NCBI RefSeq assembly: GCF_004137085.1
Contig: NZ_QYBC01000001.1
Location: 124,001 to 188,000 of the forward strand
Source of the DNA: Lichenibacterium ramalinae
GTDB lineage: Bacteria > Pseudomonadota > Alphaproteobacteria > Rhizobiales > Beijerinckiaceae
DNA length: 64,000 bases
Reading direction: 5' to 3'
Part shown: positions 21,554 to 28,837 of the stretch, one piece after another
Layout of the letters: each line of letters starts with the position of its first letter
How positions within the stretch are numbered: position 1 is the stretch's first letter
Program-made: the position numbers and the translations under genes
The notes under the pieces: generated by a model
The model's database searches: none
What the model was told of the DNA's origin: nothing
The model's input: the letters and a program-made list of their open reading frames with translations, nothing else

Positions 21554-22234
21554 ATGGACAGCGGGACGGGACGGCGCGTGAGCAGGATCCTGACGGTGGC
21601 GACCCTCGGGTTGAGCCTGTGCCTGGCGGGCGGGCTCGCGCTCGCCTGGAGCTTCGGCTCCTTCCTCGACCGGATCGCCGCCGTGGAAACGCCGGTCACC
21701 GGCCACACCGAGGGCGCGGTGGCGCTGACCGGGGGGGCCGACCGCATCGCCGATGCCGTCGAGATCCTGGCCCAGGGCCACGCCGACAAGCTGCTCATCA
21801 CGGGCGTCAACCCGGCCACGACGCCGGGCGAGATCGTCCGCCGGACGCCGGCGGCGCGCGGGCTCATCGACTGCTGCATCGCGCTCGGCTACGACGCCGC
21901 CAACACGGTGGGCAACGCGGCCGAGACCGAGCGCTGGGTCCGGGCCAACCACATCCGCTCGCTGATCGTGGTGACGTCGAACTACCACATGCCGCGTGCC
22001 CTGGCGGAGATGAGCTCGGCCCTGCCCGGCATCGAACTCGTGCCCCACCCCGTCGTGTCCGAGCACGGGCGCCTGCACCCCTGGTGGACCGACGCCGCCA
22101 GCACGCGGTTGATTCTGTGGGAATGGATCAAGTTCAACGCCGCGACGCTGCGCATCGGCATCGCGTCCCCGCCGGCCGGCGAGCCGCTGGCCGAGGCCGG
22201 CCGCGCGGCGCCTCGGCCCGATCGGGCCGGCTGA
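21554..22234 (+). CDS. YdcF/SanA/ElyC-family (DUF218) membrane protein
   Basis: 226 residues. An N-terminal membrane anchor (ILTVATLGLSLCLAGGLALAW) precedes a DUF218 domain (about 55-215) with the conserved ALTGGADRIADAVEIL, LITGVNP and VVTSNYHMPRALAEM segments. Members such as ElyC and SanA influence envelope lipid-carrier use and barrier function. The 3' end runs into a tandem repeat, and the last codons (PRPDRAG) already belong to it: the unit coding for the last residues plus stop and spacer is repeated downstream. The location after ftsEX suits a role in envelope growth. Confidence 0.85.
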   Translation: MDSGTGRRVSRILTVATLGLSLCLAGGLALAWSFGSFLDRIAAVETPVTGHTEGAVALTGGADRIADAVEILAQGHADKLLITGVNPATTPGEIVRRTPAARGLIDCCIALGYDAANTVGNAAETERWVRANHIRSLIVVTSNYHMPRALAEMSSALPGIELVPHPVVSEHGRLHPWWTDAASTRLILWEWIKFNAATLRIGIASPPAGEPLAEAGRAAPRPDRAG

Positions 22235-22360
22235 ACCCACCCCCCCAATCGGGCCGGCTGAACCCACCCCCCGATCGGGCCGGCTGAACCCACCCCCCGA
22301 TCGGGCCGGCTGACCCACCCCCCGACCGAGCCGTCTGACCCACCCCTCGACCGGGCCCGC
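22218..22360 (+). repeat. Six-unit tandem repeat over the end of the YdcF gene
   Basis: The unit CGATCGGGCCGGCTGAACCC followed by a run of ACCCCCC occurs about six times, with period 27, 26, 26, 25 and 25. The first unit encodes the last residues and stop of the YdcF gene. Each following unit carries a TGA in the same place, so any slippage would still end the protein early. The last two units have drifted (CCGACCGAGCCGTCTGA). This is a variable-number-type repeat by structure. Confidence 0.9.
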
Positions 22361-23362: not shown

Positions 23363-25771
23363 TTGGATTTCACCCGTCGCTTCACCGTGCTGATGTGCAC
23401 CCCCACCTTCGACCCGGACGACCTCGAGGGGCGGCGCATCGAGCAGATCGTCGGGGCGGTGGAAAAATCGGGCTTCGAGGTCATCCGGGCACGGCGCGTC
23501 GAGGATGCCGCCATCGCGGTGCAGACCGACGCCGCCATCGGCTGCATGGTGGTGGACTGGGGCAAGCGCGGCTTCGAGGGCAAGACCGCGGCCCTCGTCA
23601 ACCTCATGCGCAAGCGCGGGCTCGAGATGCCCATCGTGGTGATGGTGCGCCGGAAACGCCTGGAAGACATTCCCGTCGAGGTCGTCGACTTCATCGACGG
23701 CTACATCTTCCTCGCCGAGGAGACGCCGGACTTCATCGCCCGCGGCCTCGTCAGCCGCGTCAAGCAGTATGCCGACACGCTGAAGACGCCCTTCTTCGGC
23801 GCGCTCGTCGACTACGCCGAGCAGGGCAACCAACTCTGGACATGCCCGGGCCACAACGGCGGCGTCTTCTACAACCGTTCGCCCATCGGCCGCATCTTCG
23901 TCGAGCACCTCGGGGAAGCCATCTTCCGCGACGACATCGACAATTCCGTGCTCGACCTCGGCGACCTGCTGGTCCACGAGGGGCCGGCGCTGCAGGCGCA
24001 GCGCGAGGCCGCCGCCATCTTCGGGGCGGAGCGCACCTATTTCGTGCTGAACGGCACCTCGGCCTCCAACAAGGTCGTGCTGAACGCGCTGGTGGCCGAG
24101 GGCGACCTCGTGCTCTTCGACCGCAACAACCACAAGGCCGCGCTGCATGGCGCGCTGTTCCTCGGCGAGGGCATCCCGATCTTCCTGCCGACGGACCGCA
24201 ACCCCTACGGGCTCATCGGGCCCATCTTCGCCGAAGCCTTCGACGAGGCCGCCATCCGCGAGCGCATCCGCACGAACCCGCTCGTGACCGATCCCGAGGC
24301 CTGGCGGCGCGAGCGGCCGTTCCGGGTCGCCGTGATCGAGCAATGCACCTACGACGGCACGATCTACTCGGCCGAGCAGATCGTCGCCAAGATCGGCCAC
24401 CTCTGCGACTACATCCTGTTCGACGAGGCCTGGGCCGGCTTCATGAAGTTCCACCCGCTCTTCGCGGGGCGCTTCGCCATGGGGCTCAAGGACCTCGGTC
24501 CCGGTTCGCCCGGCATCATCGCCACCCAATCGGCCCACAAGCAGCTCGCGTCCTTCTCGCAGGCGTCGCAGATCCACACCAAGGACGGCCATATCCGCGG
24601 CCAGGACCGGCGCGTCGAGCACCGGCGCATGAACGAGAGCTTCCTGCTCCACGCCTCCACCTCGCCGTTCTACCCGATCTTCGCCTCGCTCGACGTCGGC
24701 GCCCAGATGATGAAGGGCCGGTCCGGCCAGGTACTGTGGGACGACACGGTGCGGCTCGGCATCGAGCTGCGCAAGAAGATCCGGGCGATCCGCCGCGAGT
24801 TCGAGAGCAAGGAGGAGGATCCGGGCAAGCGCTGGTTCTTCGAGTGCTTCGTGCCCGACACCGTGCCGATGCCCGCCACCGAGGACGAGCCCGCCGGCGA
24901 CGTGCCCTGGGACAGCGTGCCGACCGACGACCTCGCCAGCGACCCGCGCTTCTGGACGCTCGACCCCGGCGCCGGCTGGCACGGCTTCCGCCACGTGGCG
25001 CCAGGCTTCGCCATGACGGACCCCAACAAGCTCACGATCCTGACACCGGGCTTCGACCGGGCGACGGGCGACTATGCCGATTATGGCATCCCGGCCCCGG
25101 TGGTGGCGCAGTACCTGCGCGAGAACCGTATCGTGCCGGAGAAGAACGACCTCAACTCCATGCTGTTCCTGCTGACGCCGGGCGTGGAATCGTCGAAGGC
25201 CGGCACGCTCATCTCGGCCATGGTGGCGTTCAAGCGGCTGCACGACGAGGATGCGCCGGTCGAGGAGGTCATGCCGGACTTCGTGCGCCGCCGCCGCGCC
25301 CGATACGGCGGCATGCGCATCCAGGAGCTCTGCCGCGCCTTCCACGACTTCCACCGCAGCCACGGCACGAGCCGGCTGCAGCGCGCCATGTTCTCCCCCG
25401 AGCACCTGCCCGAGATGGTGGTGCCGCCGCACGAGGCCGTGCGGGCCCTGGTGCGCAACCGCGTCGACTACGTGCCGATCGAGGAGGCCGAAGGCCGCAT
25501 CGTGACGACGCTGATGCTGGTCTACCCGCCGGGCATCGGCGTGCTGGTGCCGGGCGAACGCATCGGGCCGCGGGCCAAGCCCATGCTCGACTATTTCAAG
25601 ATGTTCGAGGAAAGCTCCAACCGCTTCCCCGGGCTCGACGCCGAGATCCAGGGCGTCTACCGCGAGGTCGACCCGGGCGGCCGCATCCGCTTCTACACCT
25701 ACGTGATGCGCGAGGGCGGCGGCCGGGCGCCGGGCGGCGCTTCGGCGGGGGCACGGGGGCGGCGGGACTGA
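23363..25771 (+). CDS. Ornithine/lysine/arginine decarboxylase-type PLP enzyme
   Basis: 802 residues, the long fold type I (prokaryotic) amino acid decarboxylase. The N-terminal wing (about 1-130) is the receiver-like domain of inducible decarboxylases. The PLP domain has TCPGHNGGVFYNRSP, the schiff-base lysine in IIATQSAHKQLASF (Lys393), HTKDGH after it, and the C-terminal domain with LLTPGVESSKAGTLISAM. The fold is clear, but I cannot tell the substrate (arginine, ornithine or lysine) from sequence. Translation probably starts at the TTG at 23363, eight bases after GGAG. The acetyltransferase start overlaps its stop (TGATG). Confidence 0.9.
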   Translation: MDFTRRFTVLMCTPTFDPDDLEGRRIEQIVGAVEKSGFEVIRARRVEDAAIAVQTDAAIGCMVVDWGKRGFEGKTAALVNLMRKRGLEMPIVVMVRRKRLEDIPVEVVDFIDGYIFLAEETPDFIARGLVSRVKQYADTLKTPFFGALVDYAEQGNQLWTCPGHNGGVFYNRSPIGRIFVEHLGEAIFRDDIDNSVLDLGDLLVHEGPALQAQREAAAIFGAERTYFVLNGTSASNKVVLNALVAEGDLVLFDRNNHKAALHGALFLGEGIPIFLPTDRNPYGLIGPIFAEAFDEAAIRERIRTNPLVTDPEAWRRERPFRVAVIEQCTYDGTIYSAEQIVAKIGHLCDYILFDEAWAGFMKFHPLFAGRFAMGLKDLGPGSPGIIATQSAHKQLASFSQASQIHTKDGHIRGQDRRVEHRRMNESFLLHASTSPFYPIFASLDVGAQMMKGRSGQVLWDDTVRLGIELRKKIRAIRREFESKEEDPGKRWFFECFVPDTVPMPATEDEPAGDVPWDSVPTDDLASDPRFWTLDPGAGWHGFRHVAPGFAMTDPNKLTILTPGFDRATGDYADYGIPAPVVAQYLRENRIVPEKNDLNSMLFLLTPGVESSKAGTLISAMVAFKRLHDEDAPVEEVMPDFVRRRRARYGGMRIQELCRAFHDFHRSHGTSRLQRAMFSPEHLPEMVVPPHEAVRALVRNRVDYVPIEEAEGRIVTTLMLVYPPGIGVLVPGERIGPRAKPMLDYFKMFEESSNRFPGLDAEIQGVYREVDPGGRIRFYTYVMREGGGRAPGGASAGARGRRD

Positions 25772-26364
25772 TGGACGCGACGACGACCGACCGCACGCTG
25801 ACGATCCGCCCGTCGACCGATGCGGACGTGCCCGCCATGGTGGCGATCTACAGCTACCATATCGGCCGCGGCATCGGGGACCTCGGGAGCTACGAGGCCG
25901 ATGCCGTGGATGCCGAGGACCTGAAGCGCCGGCGGCGCAACATGCGCCACAAGCGCCTGCCCCACCTCGTGGCGGAGCTGGCGGGCGAGGTCGCCGCCTA
26001 CGCCTATGCGGTGCCGTTCCGCAAGCGCCCCGCCTACCGCTACACGGTGAAGCACTCGATCTACGTCCACCCCAGCCGGGTGGGGCTCGGCATCGGCCGG
26101 CGGCTGCTGCCGGCGCTGGTCGACGCCTGTGCGGCCGGCGGCTTTCGGCAGATGATCGGCTATATCGACGGCGCCAACGAAGCCTCGCTCCACCTGCACG
26201 AGGCCTGCGGCTTCCGCCGCGTCGGCCTGCTGCCGGCCGTGGCCTACAAGTTCGGCCATTGGGCCGACAGCATCATGGTGCAGCGCGCACTGGGCGATGG
26301 CGACGCCAACCTGCCCGAACCCCTTCCCGAACCCCTGCGGGGCGCGGCGCGCGGCGCGGCCTGA
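25771..26364 (+). CDS. GNAT N-acetyltransferase of the phosphinothricin type
   Basis: 197 residues. The GNAT fold is seen in TIRPSTDADVPAMVAIYSYH at the start, KHSIYVHPSRVGLGIGRRLLP with the acetyl-CoA binding Q/RxxGxG/A pattern (RVGLGIG), and SLHLHEACGFRRVGLLPAVA near the end. The arrangement matches phosphinothricin acetyltransferase (PAT)-like enzymes, which acetylate amines of amino-acid-like compounds. The ATG shares bases with the decarboxylase stop (TGATG), so the two are translated together; an acetyltransferase for the decarboxylase product is a natural guess but not shown. The tail after 170 is a Pro/Glu-rich extension. Confidence 0.85.
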   Translation: MDATTTDRTLTIRPSTDADVPAMVAIYSYHIGRGIGDLGSYEADAVDAEDLKRRRRNMRHKRLPHLVAELAGEVAAYAYAVPFRKRPAYRYTVKHSIYVHPSRVGLGIGRRLLPALVDACAAGGFRQMIGYIDGANEASLHLHEACGFRRVGLLPAVAYKFGHWADSIMVQRALGDGDANLPEPLPEPLRGAARGAA

Positions 26365-26461: not shown

Positions 26462-26713
26462 ATGCGGCATTTGATGATAGCGGCGCTTTGCGCCGGGGCG
26501 CTGGTGGCGGATTCGCAGGCGGCCGAGGCGCGTGGCTGCATCACGGGCGCGATCATCGGCGGGATCGCCGGCCACGCCGTGCATCACGGCATCGCCGGGG
26601 CCGCGGCCGGCTGCGCGGCGGGCTCGGGCGCCTCGCACTATTATCGCGCGCACAAGAGCCGCAGCGCGCTGCAGCGCGACCAGCGCGCCGTGACCCCGTC
26701 CGTCGCCCAGTGA
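26462..26713 (+). CDS. Small secreted glycine-zipper protein
   Basis: 83 residues. The signal peptide MRHLMIAALCAGALVADSQA leads to GCITGAIIGGIAGHAVHHGI and AGAAAGCAAGSGASH, a glycine-zipper-type stretch that could insert in the outer membrane, then a basic tail. A GGGGAG ribosome-binding site precedes the ATG. Many Hyphomicrobiales carry such short glycine-zipper proteins; the role is unknown. It converges on the minus-strand unit at 26789-27024, and a weak 7-base-pair stem (26724-26748) follows it. Confidence 0.75.
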   Translation: MRHLMIAALCAGALVADSQAAEARGCITGAIIGGIAGHAVHHGIAGAAAGCAAGSGASHYYRAHKSRSALQRDQRAVTPSVAQ

Positions 26714-26788
26714 CGCCAGCGTCGGGCCGGGACATCCCGGTCCGGCCCGCTCGCCAGGCGAGCATCGGACACCGAGATCGCTCGCCTT

Positions 26789-26828
26789 GAAAACAAAGAA
26801 GCCGCGGGACCCTCACGGGCGCCGCGGC
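26789..26828 (-). terminator. Intrinsic terminator of the minus-strand mini-unit
   Basis: On the minus strand GCCGCGG (26822-26828) pairs with CCGCGGC (26801-26807); CCCGTGAGGG inside the loop extends the structure. It is followed by TTCTTTGTTTTC (26800-26789), a good T-rich tail. This is a textbook intrinsic terminator for transcription from right to left. Confidence 0.8.
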
Positions 26829-26837
26829 TCATATCAG

Positions 26838-26863
26838 GCTCTCGTGCTAAGTCGATCGAGAGC
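26838..26863 (-). other. Stem-loop inside the minus-strand mini-unit
   Basis: CGAGAGC at 26857-26863 pairs with GCTCTCG at 26838-26844 around a 12-base loop. It lies between the 19-codon frame and the terminator, so the transcript ends in two stems. Two alternative pairings (GTGCT with AGCAC) compete in the same stretch. Confidence 0.5.
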
Positions 26864-26900
26864 ACGAAGCATTGTCAGCCGTTGTGCGGCCCAGAACTCG

Positions 26901-26960
26901 TTACGCGGACTTCACCGAAGAGAAGACCAGAGCCCCACACAGCATGAAACAATGAGACAC
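26901..26960 (-). CDS. Candidate 19-residue small ORF with perfect Shine-Dalgarno
   Basis: A GTG-initiated frame of 19 codons ending in TAA; the peptide reads MSHCFMLCGALVFSSVKSA. The Shine-Dalgarno AAGGAGGTGATC (26963-26974) is a full complement of the 16S 3' end and stands with seven bases between GGAGG and the GTG, the optimum. The peptide is hydrophobic in its middle with two cysteines, and could be a leader peptide or a small membrane peptide. No biosynthetic gene follows, so it is not a classical attenuator. The open frame is short enough to arise by chance; the strength of the ribosome-binding site, not the frame, is the evidence. Confidence 0.45.
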   Translation of the reverse strand: MSHCFMLCGALVFSSVKSA

Positions 26961-26996
26961 TAGATCACCTCCTTCCGTTTGGTTGACGATGAGGTG

Positions 26997-27024
26997 AGTT
27001 TACACGCCTTTTGCCGGATGGCAA
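26997..27024 (-). promoter_or_regulatory. Housekeeping-type promoter of the mini-unit
   Basis: On the minus strand TTGCCA (-35-like, 27019-27024), 16 bases, then TAAACT (-10-like, 26997-27002). The start of transcription would fall about at 26990, giving an RNA of about 200 bases that ends at the terminator near 26789. The Shine-Dalgarno lies some 15-30 bases after the expected start. Confidence 0.55.
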
Positions 27025-27089
27025 GCGAGCCCGACCGAGACAAATCGCCGGCCTTGCAGCTTCGTCCACAGCACATAAGGCGGCACCCG

Positions 27090-27563
27090 TCACAGGAAGG
27101 TGAGCTGCGCGTCGCGCGCCACCGGGGCCGCCATGCGCGTCCCACCCTTGCCACGCTCGGCCGCGGGAACGGGCTTGCCGTCCGCCCGCGGGCGGGGCTT
27201 GCGCAGCGGCGCCGTCGCCTTGGGGCCGGCCGCGATCCTCGCCTTGGCCTTGTCGCGGGCCTTGGCCTCCGGGGCATTCGGGTCGCCGTCGAGCCACTTG
27301 CCGCGCTTGATGACCTCGTTGACCCGTCCCTGGTTCACCCCGACCTTGAAGGCGATCTCCTGCTGGGTCATGCCGGTGGAGCCGTGCAGCTCGAGGATGC
27401 GGCGCGCGAGATCCGGCGTCATCTTCTGGCCGGTCAGGCGGCGGGCCGGCGCCACGGCGGAGCGCTTGGCGCGGTCCCGCTCCTTCAGGCCCTGGAGGAT
27501 GGCCAGCGCCATCGACATGCCCTGGTCGCGCAACGCGTCCTCGAATTCCCTCAGCGTCGTCAT
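27090..27563 (-). CDS. HTH protein of unknown function with clamp-binding-like C-terminus
   Basis: 157 residues. The core PDLARRILELHGSTGMTQQE IAFKVGVNQGR VNEVIKRGKW (about 47-90) is a helix-turn-helix of the sigma-70 region 4 or lambda-repressor type. A long basic and proline-rich tail follows, and the last residues are QLTFL, which resembles the QLxLF motif by which proteins dock on the DNA polymerase beta clamp. The start MTTLREFEDALRDQGMS at 27563 fits a helical N-terminus; an earlier ATG at 27629 overlaps the paired DnaA boxes. Alone on the strand, it faces the spore photoproduct lyase-like gene; a link to replication is inferred from the boxes and the tail. Confidence 0.65.
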   Translation of the reverse strand: MTTLREFEDALRDQGMSMALAILQGLKERDRAKRSAVAPARRLTGQKMTPDLARRILELHGSTGMTQQEIAFKVGVNQGRVNEVIKRGKWLDGDPNAPEAKARDKAKARIAAGPKATAPLRKPRPRADGKPVPAAERGKGGTRMAAPVARDAQLTFL

Positions 27564-27763: not shown

Positions 27764-28837
27764 ATGCACGACATCTCCGCCCCGGGCTTCCTCAGCGTCG
27801 ACACGATCTACCTCGAGCCGGCCGTGGAAGGCTTCGCGCGCGGCCGCGAGATCCTGGCGCGCTTCCCCGCGGCGCGGCGCATCCCGGTCGCGTCGCATTG
27901 GCGGATCCCTGAACTGCACGGCAACGAGGGCCTCGCCGAGGACTGGCTGCACAGCAAACGCACCACCCTGGTGCTGGGCGTGAAGAAGGGGCTCGCCATG
28001 CGGCCCAACGGCCGCAGCGCCGATTTCATCGCGCCTTCGACGTCGAACGGCTGCGCCATGGCCTGCGCCTACTGCTACGTGCCCCGCCGGAAGGGCTACG
28101 CCAACCCGATCTCGCTCTTCGTCAACGTCGAGGAGGTCGCCGCCGCCATCGCGCGCCACGCGCGCAAGCTCGGGCCCAAGCCCGAGCCCGACCAGGTGGA
28201 CCCCGTCGACTGGGTCTACGACATCGGCGAGAACGGCGACCTGTCGGTCGACGCCATGCTGTCGGACAACGTGCGCGACCTCGTGGCCCTGTTCCGGGCG
28301 ACGCCCCACGCCAAGGGCTCCTTCGCCACCAAGGCGGTGAACCGCGACCTCCTGGCCTACGACCCCGGCGGCAAGACGCGGGTCCGCTTCTCGCTGATGC
28401 CGGAGCGGGTCGCCCGGGTGGTGGATGTCCGCACCAGCCCCATGGCGGCGCGGATCGCCGCCATCGACGACTTCGTGCGGGCCGGCTACGAGGTCCACGT
28501 CAATTTCTCGCCCGTGATCCTGTATCCGGGCTGGGAAGCCGACTACCGGGCGCTGTTCGAGGCCGTGGATGCCGCGCTGTCGCCGGAGGCCAAGCGCCAG
28601 CTCAAGGCCGAGATCATCATGCTGACCCACAATGCGGCGCTGCACGAGGTCAACCTGCGCTGGCACCCCAAGGCCGAGGACTGGCTTTGGACGCCCGATA
28701 TCCAGGAAACCAAGCTGAGCGAGGGCGGCCAGGAGAACCTGCGCTACCGCACGGGCTGGAAGGGCCGCTGGCTCGCCCGCTTCAAGGCGCTGCTGGCCGA
28801 AACCCTGCCCTATTGCACGGTGCGCTACGCTTTCTGA
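27764..28837 (+). CDS. Spore photoproduct lyase-like radical SAM protein
   Basis: 357 residues. The radical SAM cluster motif CxxxCxxC is present as CAMACAYC (Cys97, Cys101, Cys104) and is flanked by FIAPSTSNG and YVPRRKGYANP, as in spore photoproduct lyases (SplB), which repair the UV lesion of spore DNA. C-terminal elements such as LRWHPKAEDWLWTPDIQETK and TGWKGRWLARFKALLAE match too. Organisms of this type make no spores, so a related DNA-repair or other function is expected. The ATG at 27764 has no strong ribosome-binding site. The final 60 residues contain no further cysteines. The DnaA-box pair is about 115 bases upstream. Confidence 0.85.
   Translation: MHDISAPGFLSVDTIYLEPAVEGFARGREILARFPAARRIPVASHWRIPELHGNEGLAEDWLHSKRTTLVLGVKKGLAMRPNGRSADFIAPSTSNGCAMACAYCYVPRRKGYANPISLFVNVEEVAAAIARHARKLGPKPEPDQVDPVDWVYDIGENGDLSVDAMLSDNVRDLVALFRATPHAKGSFATKAVNRDLLAYDPGGKTRVRFSLMPERVARVVDVRTSPMAARIAAIDDFVRAGYEVHVNFSPVILYPGWEADYRALFEAVDAALSPEAKRQLKAEIIMLTHNAALHEVNLRWHPKAEDWLWTPDIQETKLSEGGQENLRYRTGWKGRWLARFKALLAETLPYCTVRYAF

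Follow-up and report, generated by a model that had tools for sequence, protein, structure and literature searches.

The closest described relative of the locus analyzed here is CC2171 (Rfam RF01867), a Caulobacter small RNA whose family Rfam files as non-coding and represents by a nested consensus with neither a reading frame nor a helix between the Shine-Dalgarno (SD) sequence and an anti-SD. CC2171 was reportedly first described by Landt et al. in 2008. A literature search, outside whose scope that original description lay, found no reading frame or SD:anti-SD helix described for the family, and the accessible portions of PMC5082802, PMC12559287, and PMC2245857 contain nothing on it. Several features of the locus are known from other systems. 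In the DUF1127 attenuator of S. meliloti (PMC12218461), the ribosome-binding site of a short upstream ORF pairs with the ORF's own codons and the RNA, not the peptide, matters; its authors propose that ribosome availability is sensed. That system is a gene leader with probable Rho-dependent termination and no intrinsic terminator, whereas the unit reported here is a stand-alone one with an intrinsic terminator. Type I toxin mRNAs such as aapA3 of H. pylori, as presented in the available part of PMC6733600, likewise possess an in-ORF anti-SD, a long-distance helix between the 5' and 3' ends, and successive structures, but there the toxin peptide is the product, whereas the peptide of the CC2171 family is not conserved. 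The dual-function attenuator RNA rnTrpL/peTrpL is likewise a small regulatory RNA whose very short ORF is translated; in the text available (PMC10117765) it differs in being leaderless, derived from a trp attenuator, and devoid of an extended SD. Translation of presumed non-coding RNAs has precedents, too. Schrader et al. (2014) report translation of two Caulobacter RNAs that had earlier been predicted to be non-coding (PMC4117421), and an S. meliloti Ribo-seq study reports that 33% of 54 unannotated translated small ORFs fall on annotated small RNAs (PMC10117765). It is possible that translation of the CC2171 family was already described within those Caulobacter or S. meliloti sets. A survey of small-RNA-coded peptides includes the S. 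meliloti genome, and its accessible passage does not carry the CC2171 family name (PMC5521070). Beyond what is known of the family, sequence comparison points to three new features: selection on the reading frame, a peptide that is almost free to change, and an anti-SD helix that crosses the known one.

The window is the whole stretch of DNA analyzed, 64,000 nucleotides in length, and the first-pass annotation had placed a compact minus-strand transcription unit at 26789-27024. This unit proved real: all listed bases were confirmed, and a promoter and terminator scan, the fold, and conservation in congeners agreed with it. In 26700-27100, the single promoter-like site was on the minus strand (shuffled sequences gave a mean of 0.0) and consisted of a -35 hexamer TTGCCA (27019..27024), also found in both congeners, and a -10 hexamer TAAACT (26997..27002) after a 16-nt spacer and 30 nt upstream of GGAGG. 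Transcription is expected to start approximately 7 bases beyond the -10 box. The extended SD AAGGAGGTGATC (26963..26974), which is complementary to the 16S rRNA 3' tail, would form the 5' strand of a helix termed helix B. Its spacing had been given as seven bases before the start codon, which holds for GGAGG; the 12-mer as a whole ends 2 bases before GTG. The short ORF (26901..26960) runs from GTG at 26960-26958 through 19 codons (MSHCFMLCGALVFSSVKSA) to TAA at 26903-26901. Codons 3-5 contain CATTGTT (26948..26954), the 5' arm of helix A according to the fold and to compensatory changes in relatives, and its 3' arm GACAATG (26870..26876), identical in both congeners, was located by the fold and by a covariance model described below. 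A candidate internal anti-SD that imitates the 16S tail, CTGGTCTTCTCT in codons 11-14 (26919..26930), was positioned from the relatives; as the 3' strand of helix B it is degenerate in this lineage and would form a weak duplex. Folding of the transcript further predicted a lineage-specific stem-loop between helix A and the terminator (26838..26866), which is 15 bases shorter in two congeneric relatives. The intrinsic terminator (26790..26829) comprises a stem at 26829-26800, identical in both congeners, and a T-rich tail, and the inner part of this GC-rich stem was the single terminator-like site in the scanned region (shuffled mean, 0.4). All of these features lie on the minus strand. The transcript fold was better than those of 200/200 dinucleotide shuffles (z -2.9), and 72 consecutive bases, from the ORF body through the 3' arm to 34 bases past the stop, were identical to the window's in two congeneric genomes, with diverged flanks.

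Two other interpretations of local sequence were discarded. The plus-strand GATCACCTCCTT resembles a 16S 3' end, but a 16S rRNA gene remnant was rejected because the window had no Rfam match at curated cut-offs and the surrounding bases differ from the 16S 3' end of a congener. An upstream anti-SD, CTCACCTCAT, which pairs with the SD in the fold of the window sequence, was set aside because it lies mostly between the -10 box and the expected transcription start and its letters are not kept in the two congeners.

Contrary to the earlier statement that no described family fits, the unit is, as far as profile and structure comparison can tell, a divergent homologue of the alphaproteobacterial RF01867. 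While the search at curated cut-offs found no match in the window, a relaxed search matched the locus to RF01867 with 45.6 bits (E 1.8e-6), under the curated 75 bits; in that search, RF01867 was found in 15/15 related loci, five of them above 75 bits. We built a covariance model, R1, from 21 of the 22 above-cut-off RF01867 hits among the order's genomes (L039 omitted; none of the window's genus). R1 matched the element over its full length (model positions 1-167 of 167) at 26843..26984 on the minus strand with 42.2 bits (E 7.2e-11), the only match in the window and in its own genome. The window unit has in common with RF01867 the 5' block AAGGAGGTGATC..GTGTCTCATTG, helix A, and the terminator, with CATTGT at 26954-26949, GACAATG at 26876-26870, and the terminator stem at 26829-26800. 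It differs in its score below the curated threshold and in the extra stem-loop, which here separates the 3' arm from the terminator.

At E 0.001, a search of 249 genomes of the order detected RF01867 homologues in 131, with 22 hits scoring above the cut-off. The pattern AAGGAGGTGATCNNRTGTC occurred in 81/387 genomes of the class and in 79/397 of the phylum, five of those 79 outside the class, and the pattern GGAGGTGATCNNGTGTCTCA in at least 120 stretches of genome contigs, the listed titles of which include Hyphomicrobiales, Caulobacterales, Acetobacteraceae, and Azospirillum. These distributions suggest a mainly alphaproteobacterial family with, as a rule, one match per genome. From RF01867 hits, 60 regions were fetched, and 56 contained a recognizable element with a frame of 14-31 codons. 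A second RF01867 match in the window's own genome (C28, E 1e-4; L229) was not accepted as the element, its best site having 6 mismatches; L220 was likewise rejected, L204 and L219 were without any site, and a second model match in L077 came from the 3' half, which an insertion had displaced, rather than from a tandem copy. Two Skermanella plasmids (NZ_CP086114.1 and NZ_CP086109.1) each gave two separate matches to family queries, which are possible paralogues on one replicon. Plasmid records that matched two queries were Azospirillum, Skermanella, and Methylobacterium replicons, with no listed gene under the match in a gene table that is incomplete, and among phage records the Methylobacterium-type element (L025) had one match, covering 16% of the query.

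For structural comparison we used an alignment of 21 CC2171 members (A1; L039 omitted) and a larger one (A2) of 104 rows from 100 sources, 4 rows of which are second or terminator-only matches. For comparison of frames and energies, 250 elements with full flanks were dereplicated to 196, all of them selected for GGAGGTG[AG]TC..[AG]TGTC, so that this set cannot show conservation of those letters. The terminator stem covaries across the family. The best -10-like hexamer lay 28-32 nt upstream of GGAGG in 151/196 elements, so its distance recurs, but its scores were little above those of shuffled sequence (8 or more of 12 in 83/196 elements versus 60/196 shuffled). The earlier description of a compact independent unit resembling a short messenger or dual-function RNA fits the relatives well, in which SD, frame, and terminator recur.

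The start codon was GTG in 154 and ATG in 42 of the 196 elements, and 194 of them reached an in-frame stop at codon 14-35. After omission of 5 loci with short flanks and merging of near-identical elements (85% identity, 164 to 122), the first in-frame stop fell at codon 19-28 in 116/122 elements, compared with a mean of 16.4 and a maximum of 26 in 200 shuffles and with 12 and 21 elements in frames +1 and +2, respectively. The anchor was located in 87 elements of the TCTCA subgroup, and in 72 of these the distance from the start to the anti-SD, which varied widely in length, was 2 mod 3, while the distance from the anti-SD to the 3' arm, which spans the stop, was spread over the three phases as 31/28/21 (80 elements). 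Length changes thus appear to keep the codon phase within the frame and not across the stop, which is the strongest of the comparative tests of translation. As shown by this comparison, the CC2171 family would be a translated mini-mRNA whose frame is open and in phase across Alphaproteobacteria.

The peptide itself seems to be under little constraint. In 35 disjoint pairs of close relatives, differences numbered 90/92/93 at codon positions 1/2/3, and the synonymous share was 0.28 against an expected 0.22 (p 0.015), a slight excess that leaves room for some weak constraint on the peptide. Since the frame is kept while differences are equal over the codon positions, translation appears to be selected and the peptide hardly so. 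The first-pass annotation had stressed a small hydrophobic peptide with two cysteines and proposed that its codons be examined for synonymous-only change; neither point was borne out. The first Cys codon lies inside an RNA helix, the second Cys is absent from most relatives, and both ORF differences among three congeneric species alter the residue. A database search gave 0 matches for six family peptides in NCBIfam and Pfam up to E 1. Residues do recur in the largest subgroup (MSHC, P, R, W, A, S, E), and an ordinary small mRNA in which a 19-25-residue peptide (MSHC...TW..AS..) does the work would account for them as well as for the kept frame and the synonymous excess. We nevertheless regard such a micropeptide as unlikely, because the codon positions vary equally and the within-genus differences change residues, and because several of the recurrent residues overlap RNA constraints: helix A covers H-C and helix B covers W-I, W being replaced by R where the SD side is CCGG, and other subgroups encode unrelated peptides, e.g. 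MSSEI...EQPL or VSFTKRCHLAGIAR.

Helix A, which is already present in the Rfam model, pairs codons 2-5 with bases near the 3' end, in many elements immediately before the terminator. Its arms show the compensations CAUUGUC:GACAAUG, CAUCGC:GCGAUG, CAUAGU:ACUAUG, CAAUGUC:GACAUUG, CAUUUGUC:GACAAAUG, and CAUGAGAU:AUCUCAUG. In the alignment, 94.6% of its cells were paired (19-76% when slid), with 25 doubly changed cells versus 6.0 in shuffled columns, and an element's own arms bound each other better than swapped arms (-16.3 versus -14.2; 194 elements, two of the 196 with longer frames being omitted).

Helix B would join the SD to an anti-SD inside the frame. In most members above the cut-off, the start is preceded by GAAAGGAGGTGATCCAG, which is complementary to the 16S 3' end over 17 nt. 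Two patterns for the 16S tail had no match in the contigs searched of the window's own genome and none in the congener G001, and the congener G003 was used, whose 16S rRNA ends in CTGCGGCTGGATCACCTCCTTTCT. Around codons 10-16, the ORF contains an imitation of that tail, in the form of CCTGGATC-NNN-GCCTC or a variant. Its duplex energy with the element's own SD averaged -18.3, compared with -14.1 for shuffled ORF bodies; the anti-SDs of other family members were nearly as good (-17.7). The best SD-complementary stretch lay inside the ORF in 150/196 elements, with a median of -16.1 versus -12.1 for scrambled SDs, which were scanned at half density. Furthermore, the position of the anti-SD tracked that of the stop codon (rho 0.42, p 7e-10; 196 elements), whereas scrambled SDs were spread broadly. 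RNAalifold applied to A1 selected the SD:anti-SD helix unprompted, and its two halves had 94.5% and 80.8% of cells paired, compared with 37-48% when the whole structure was slid by 1-3 columns. On A2, helix B was paired in 84.7% of cells (30-48% when slid) and had 15 doubly changed cells versus 3.6 in shuffles; the paired share itself was barely above that of column shuffles (84.7 versus 83.6%) because the SD side is almost invariant. In the window's own copy, the helix B duplex is poor (-14.6). Replacement letters would give tighter binding, and the motif's TGG lies outside its usual setting. In a subtype with 14-codon frames (L182, L185, L187, and L188), a 3' arm CCAGCGAG present in part of the loci complements CTCGCTGG, which overlaps the anti-SD CACCTC, so that the 3' end and the SD would compete for the same anti-SD.

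The base preceding the start codon, left free in the searches, is paired with another column in R1 and gives a further view of helix B. Where this base is not A, a fitting partner was found in 15/15 rows (9 G-C, 3 C-G, 1 U-A, and 2 G-U). The Watson-Crick changes there numbered 13, versus 2.7 in shuffles (maximum 8 in 10,000); nine of the 13 are G-C, and by title Acetobacteraceae account for six of these nine. Of the 83 rows in which the start is preceded by A, 63 pair and 20 do not. In a model-free G-test on 136 TCTCA-subgroup sequences aligned by MAFFT, the pair ranked 14th (z 6.9), and the pairs above it belong to the terminator and helix A and include some without structural sense. When the two bases before the start were swapped, the own letters were better in 32 of the 48 non-CA elements, compared with 28/48 for a control region. 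By class, CG, CC, and TC gained from their own letters, CT was approximately equal, and TA, TG, GA, and AA lost; CG letters suited CA elements as well as CA letters did. We also computed the unpaired probability of GGAGG in 191 elements (the 196 minus 5). For RNAs ending at the stop it averaged 0.20, versus 0.25 for shuffled ORF bodies; at full length it was 0.28, and nested folding favored helix A over helix B. By these values, thermodynamics support masking of the SD only weakly.

Helices A and B cross, which implies either a pseudoknot or mutually exclusive states, that is, a two-state switch. With a frame that is open, a peptide that is nearly free, and an SD able to pair with an in-frame copy of the 16S tail, being translated looks to be what counts, rather than the peptide. 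The reading that we favor, and consider somewhat probable, is a stand-alone, self-masking mini-mRNA that reports ribosome engagement, with the act of translation as signal or output and the peptide as a by-product. Such an RNA would have two or more states. The nascent RNA would expose the SD first, and the anti-SD would emerge some 40 nt later. A prompt ribosome would run through the anti-SD and keep the SD open; if no ribosome arrived, the SD would pair with the anti-SD in helix B, after which the 3' end would clamp codons 3-5 in helix A, which would lock the start codon in either a pseudoknot or a succession of structures. Because the SD matches the 16S tail over such a length, 30S subunits may be able to compete with the imitation of this tail that the RNA carries. 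As a ribosome opens the site and its absence closes it, translation would set the state of the RNA, and the folded or ribosome-bound form may then act in trans or simply set the lifetime of the RNA. A more specific version is possible, and we put it forward only tentatively: a class-wide RNA that gauges free ribosomes through competition between the 30S subunit and its own 16S-tail imitation, in which the crossing 5'-3' helix is the locked state, the frame serves only to give ribosomes a means of unlocking the RNA, and whether it is locked or open drives an effect in trans. Under the broader reading, members of a family now classed as non-coding appear to be translated throughout the class, with translation itself as the conserved trait because the frame is selected and the peptide hardly, and possibly with a built-in gauge of ribosome availability. 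RF01867 would then need re-annotation with the frame and the crossing helix, and model strains such as Caulobacter crescentus and Methylobacterium would permit a direct test.

Complementarity to the 16S tail over as many as 17 nt may instead mark a decoy, a sponge for 30S subunits in which the frame only releases bound ribosomes. Complementarity to the entire tail and an own unit with a terminator are what such a decoy would show, but a sponge needs no in-frame anti-SD, and the covariation of the frame end with the anti-SD position (rho 0.42) makes this quite unlikely. The classification in Rfam as 'Gene; sRNA' represents a further possibility, a non-coding RNA acting in trans on which SD and frame are incidental. 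In its favor, a published table of small RNAs includes an M. huakuii member, sequenced at 215 nt (PMC5596092), and Schrader et al. (2014; PMC4117421) state that most Caulobacter non-coding RNA regions are untranslated. Stops at codon 19-28 in 116/122 elements, against at most 26/122 in shuffles, and a phase kept only inside the frame leave this reading very improbable.

A self-masking mini-mRNA, as favored above, would be a gene of its own, and the genomic context bears on this point. Downstream in the window lies a convergent ORF (26462-26713, plus strand) with a weak glycine-zipper match below the Pfam cut-off, and the ORF upstream is on the same strand and has a weak match to sigma-70 region 4, also below the Pfam cut-off. 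Crude single-linkage clustering of all ORFs over 195 loci revealed no general gene neighbor: the two clusters that cover the most loci (42 and 39) are mixtures of sides or strands and of many frames, and the largest one-sided clusters comprise 13 loci upstream and 11 downstream on the same strand. Since there is no general neighbor, the unit is most likely its own gene. The unit might instead be the leader or attenuator of a gene that follows it, in the manner of trpL or the DUF1127 upstream ORF of S. meliloti. Its list of parts is that of the DUF1127 leader, in which the ribosome-binding site of an upstream ORF pairs with codons of the same ORF (PMC12218461); given the convergent ORF next downstream in the window and a largest downstream same-strand cluster of 11/195 loci in this crude clustering, we consider such a role highly improbable. 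A type I toxin mRNA, whose toxic peptide is silenced by the fold, would share the folding logic of the aapA3 mRNA with its in-ORF anti-SD and 5'-3' long-distance helix (PMC6733600, accessible part), but it is scarcely credible for a peptide that is not conserved and, by eye, not consistently hydrophobic.

Two neighbors recur in part of the loci. A divergent prfC gene (peptide chain release factor 3) adjoins the element upstream in 13 loci, six of them Microvirga by title (L023, L045, L079, L086, L096, L101, L131, L134, L137, L143, L152, L164, and L173), and a further 11 loci, of which six are Bosea by title, have an RNase-R-like gene downstream; in each of the two clusters, a single protein was identified by name. 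Both act in translation or RNA quality control, and their association with the element may be due to chance. Elsewhere in the window, a tandem array at 22217-22357 consists of 5.5 copies of the 26-bp unit CCCGATCGGGCCGGCTGAACCCACCC with 92% matches. On the plus strand, an Orn/Lys/Arg decarboxylase gene (23363-25771) is directly followed by a GNAT acetyltransferase gene (25771-26364), both assigned by Pfam, an arrangement that resembles a two-gene amine operon, and 27764-28837 encodes a spore photoproduct lyase family protein (Pfam SPL) in this alphaproteobacterial genome.
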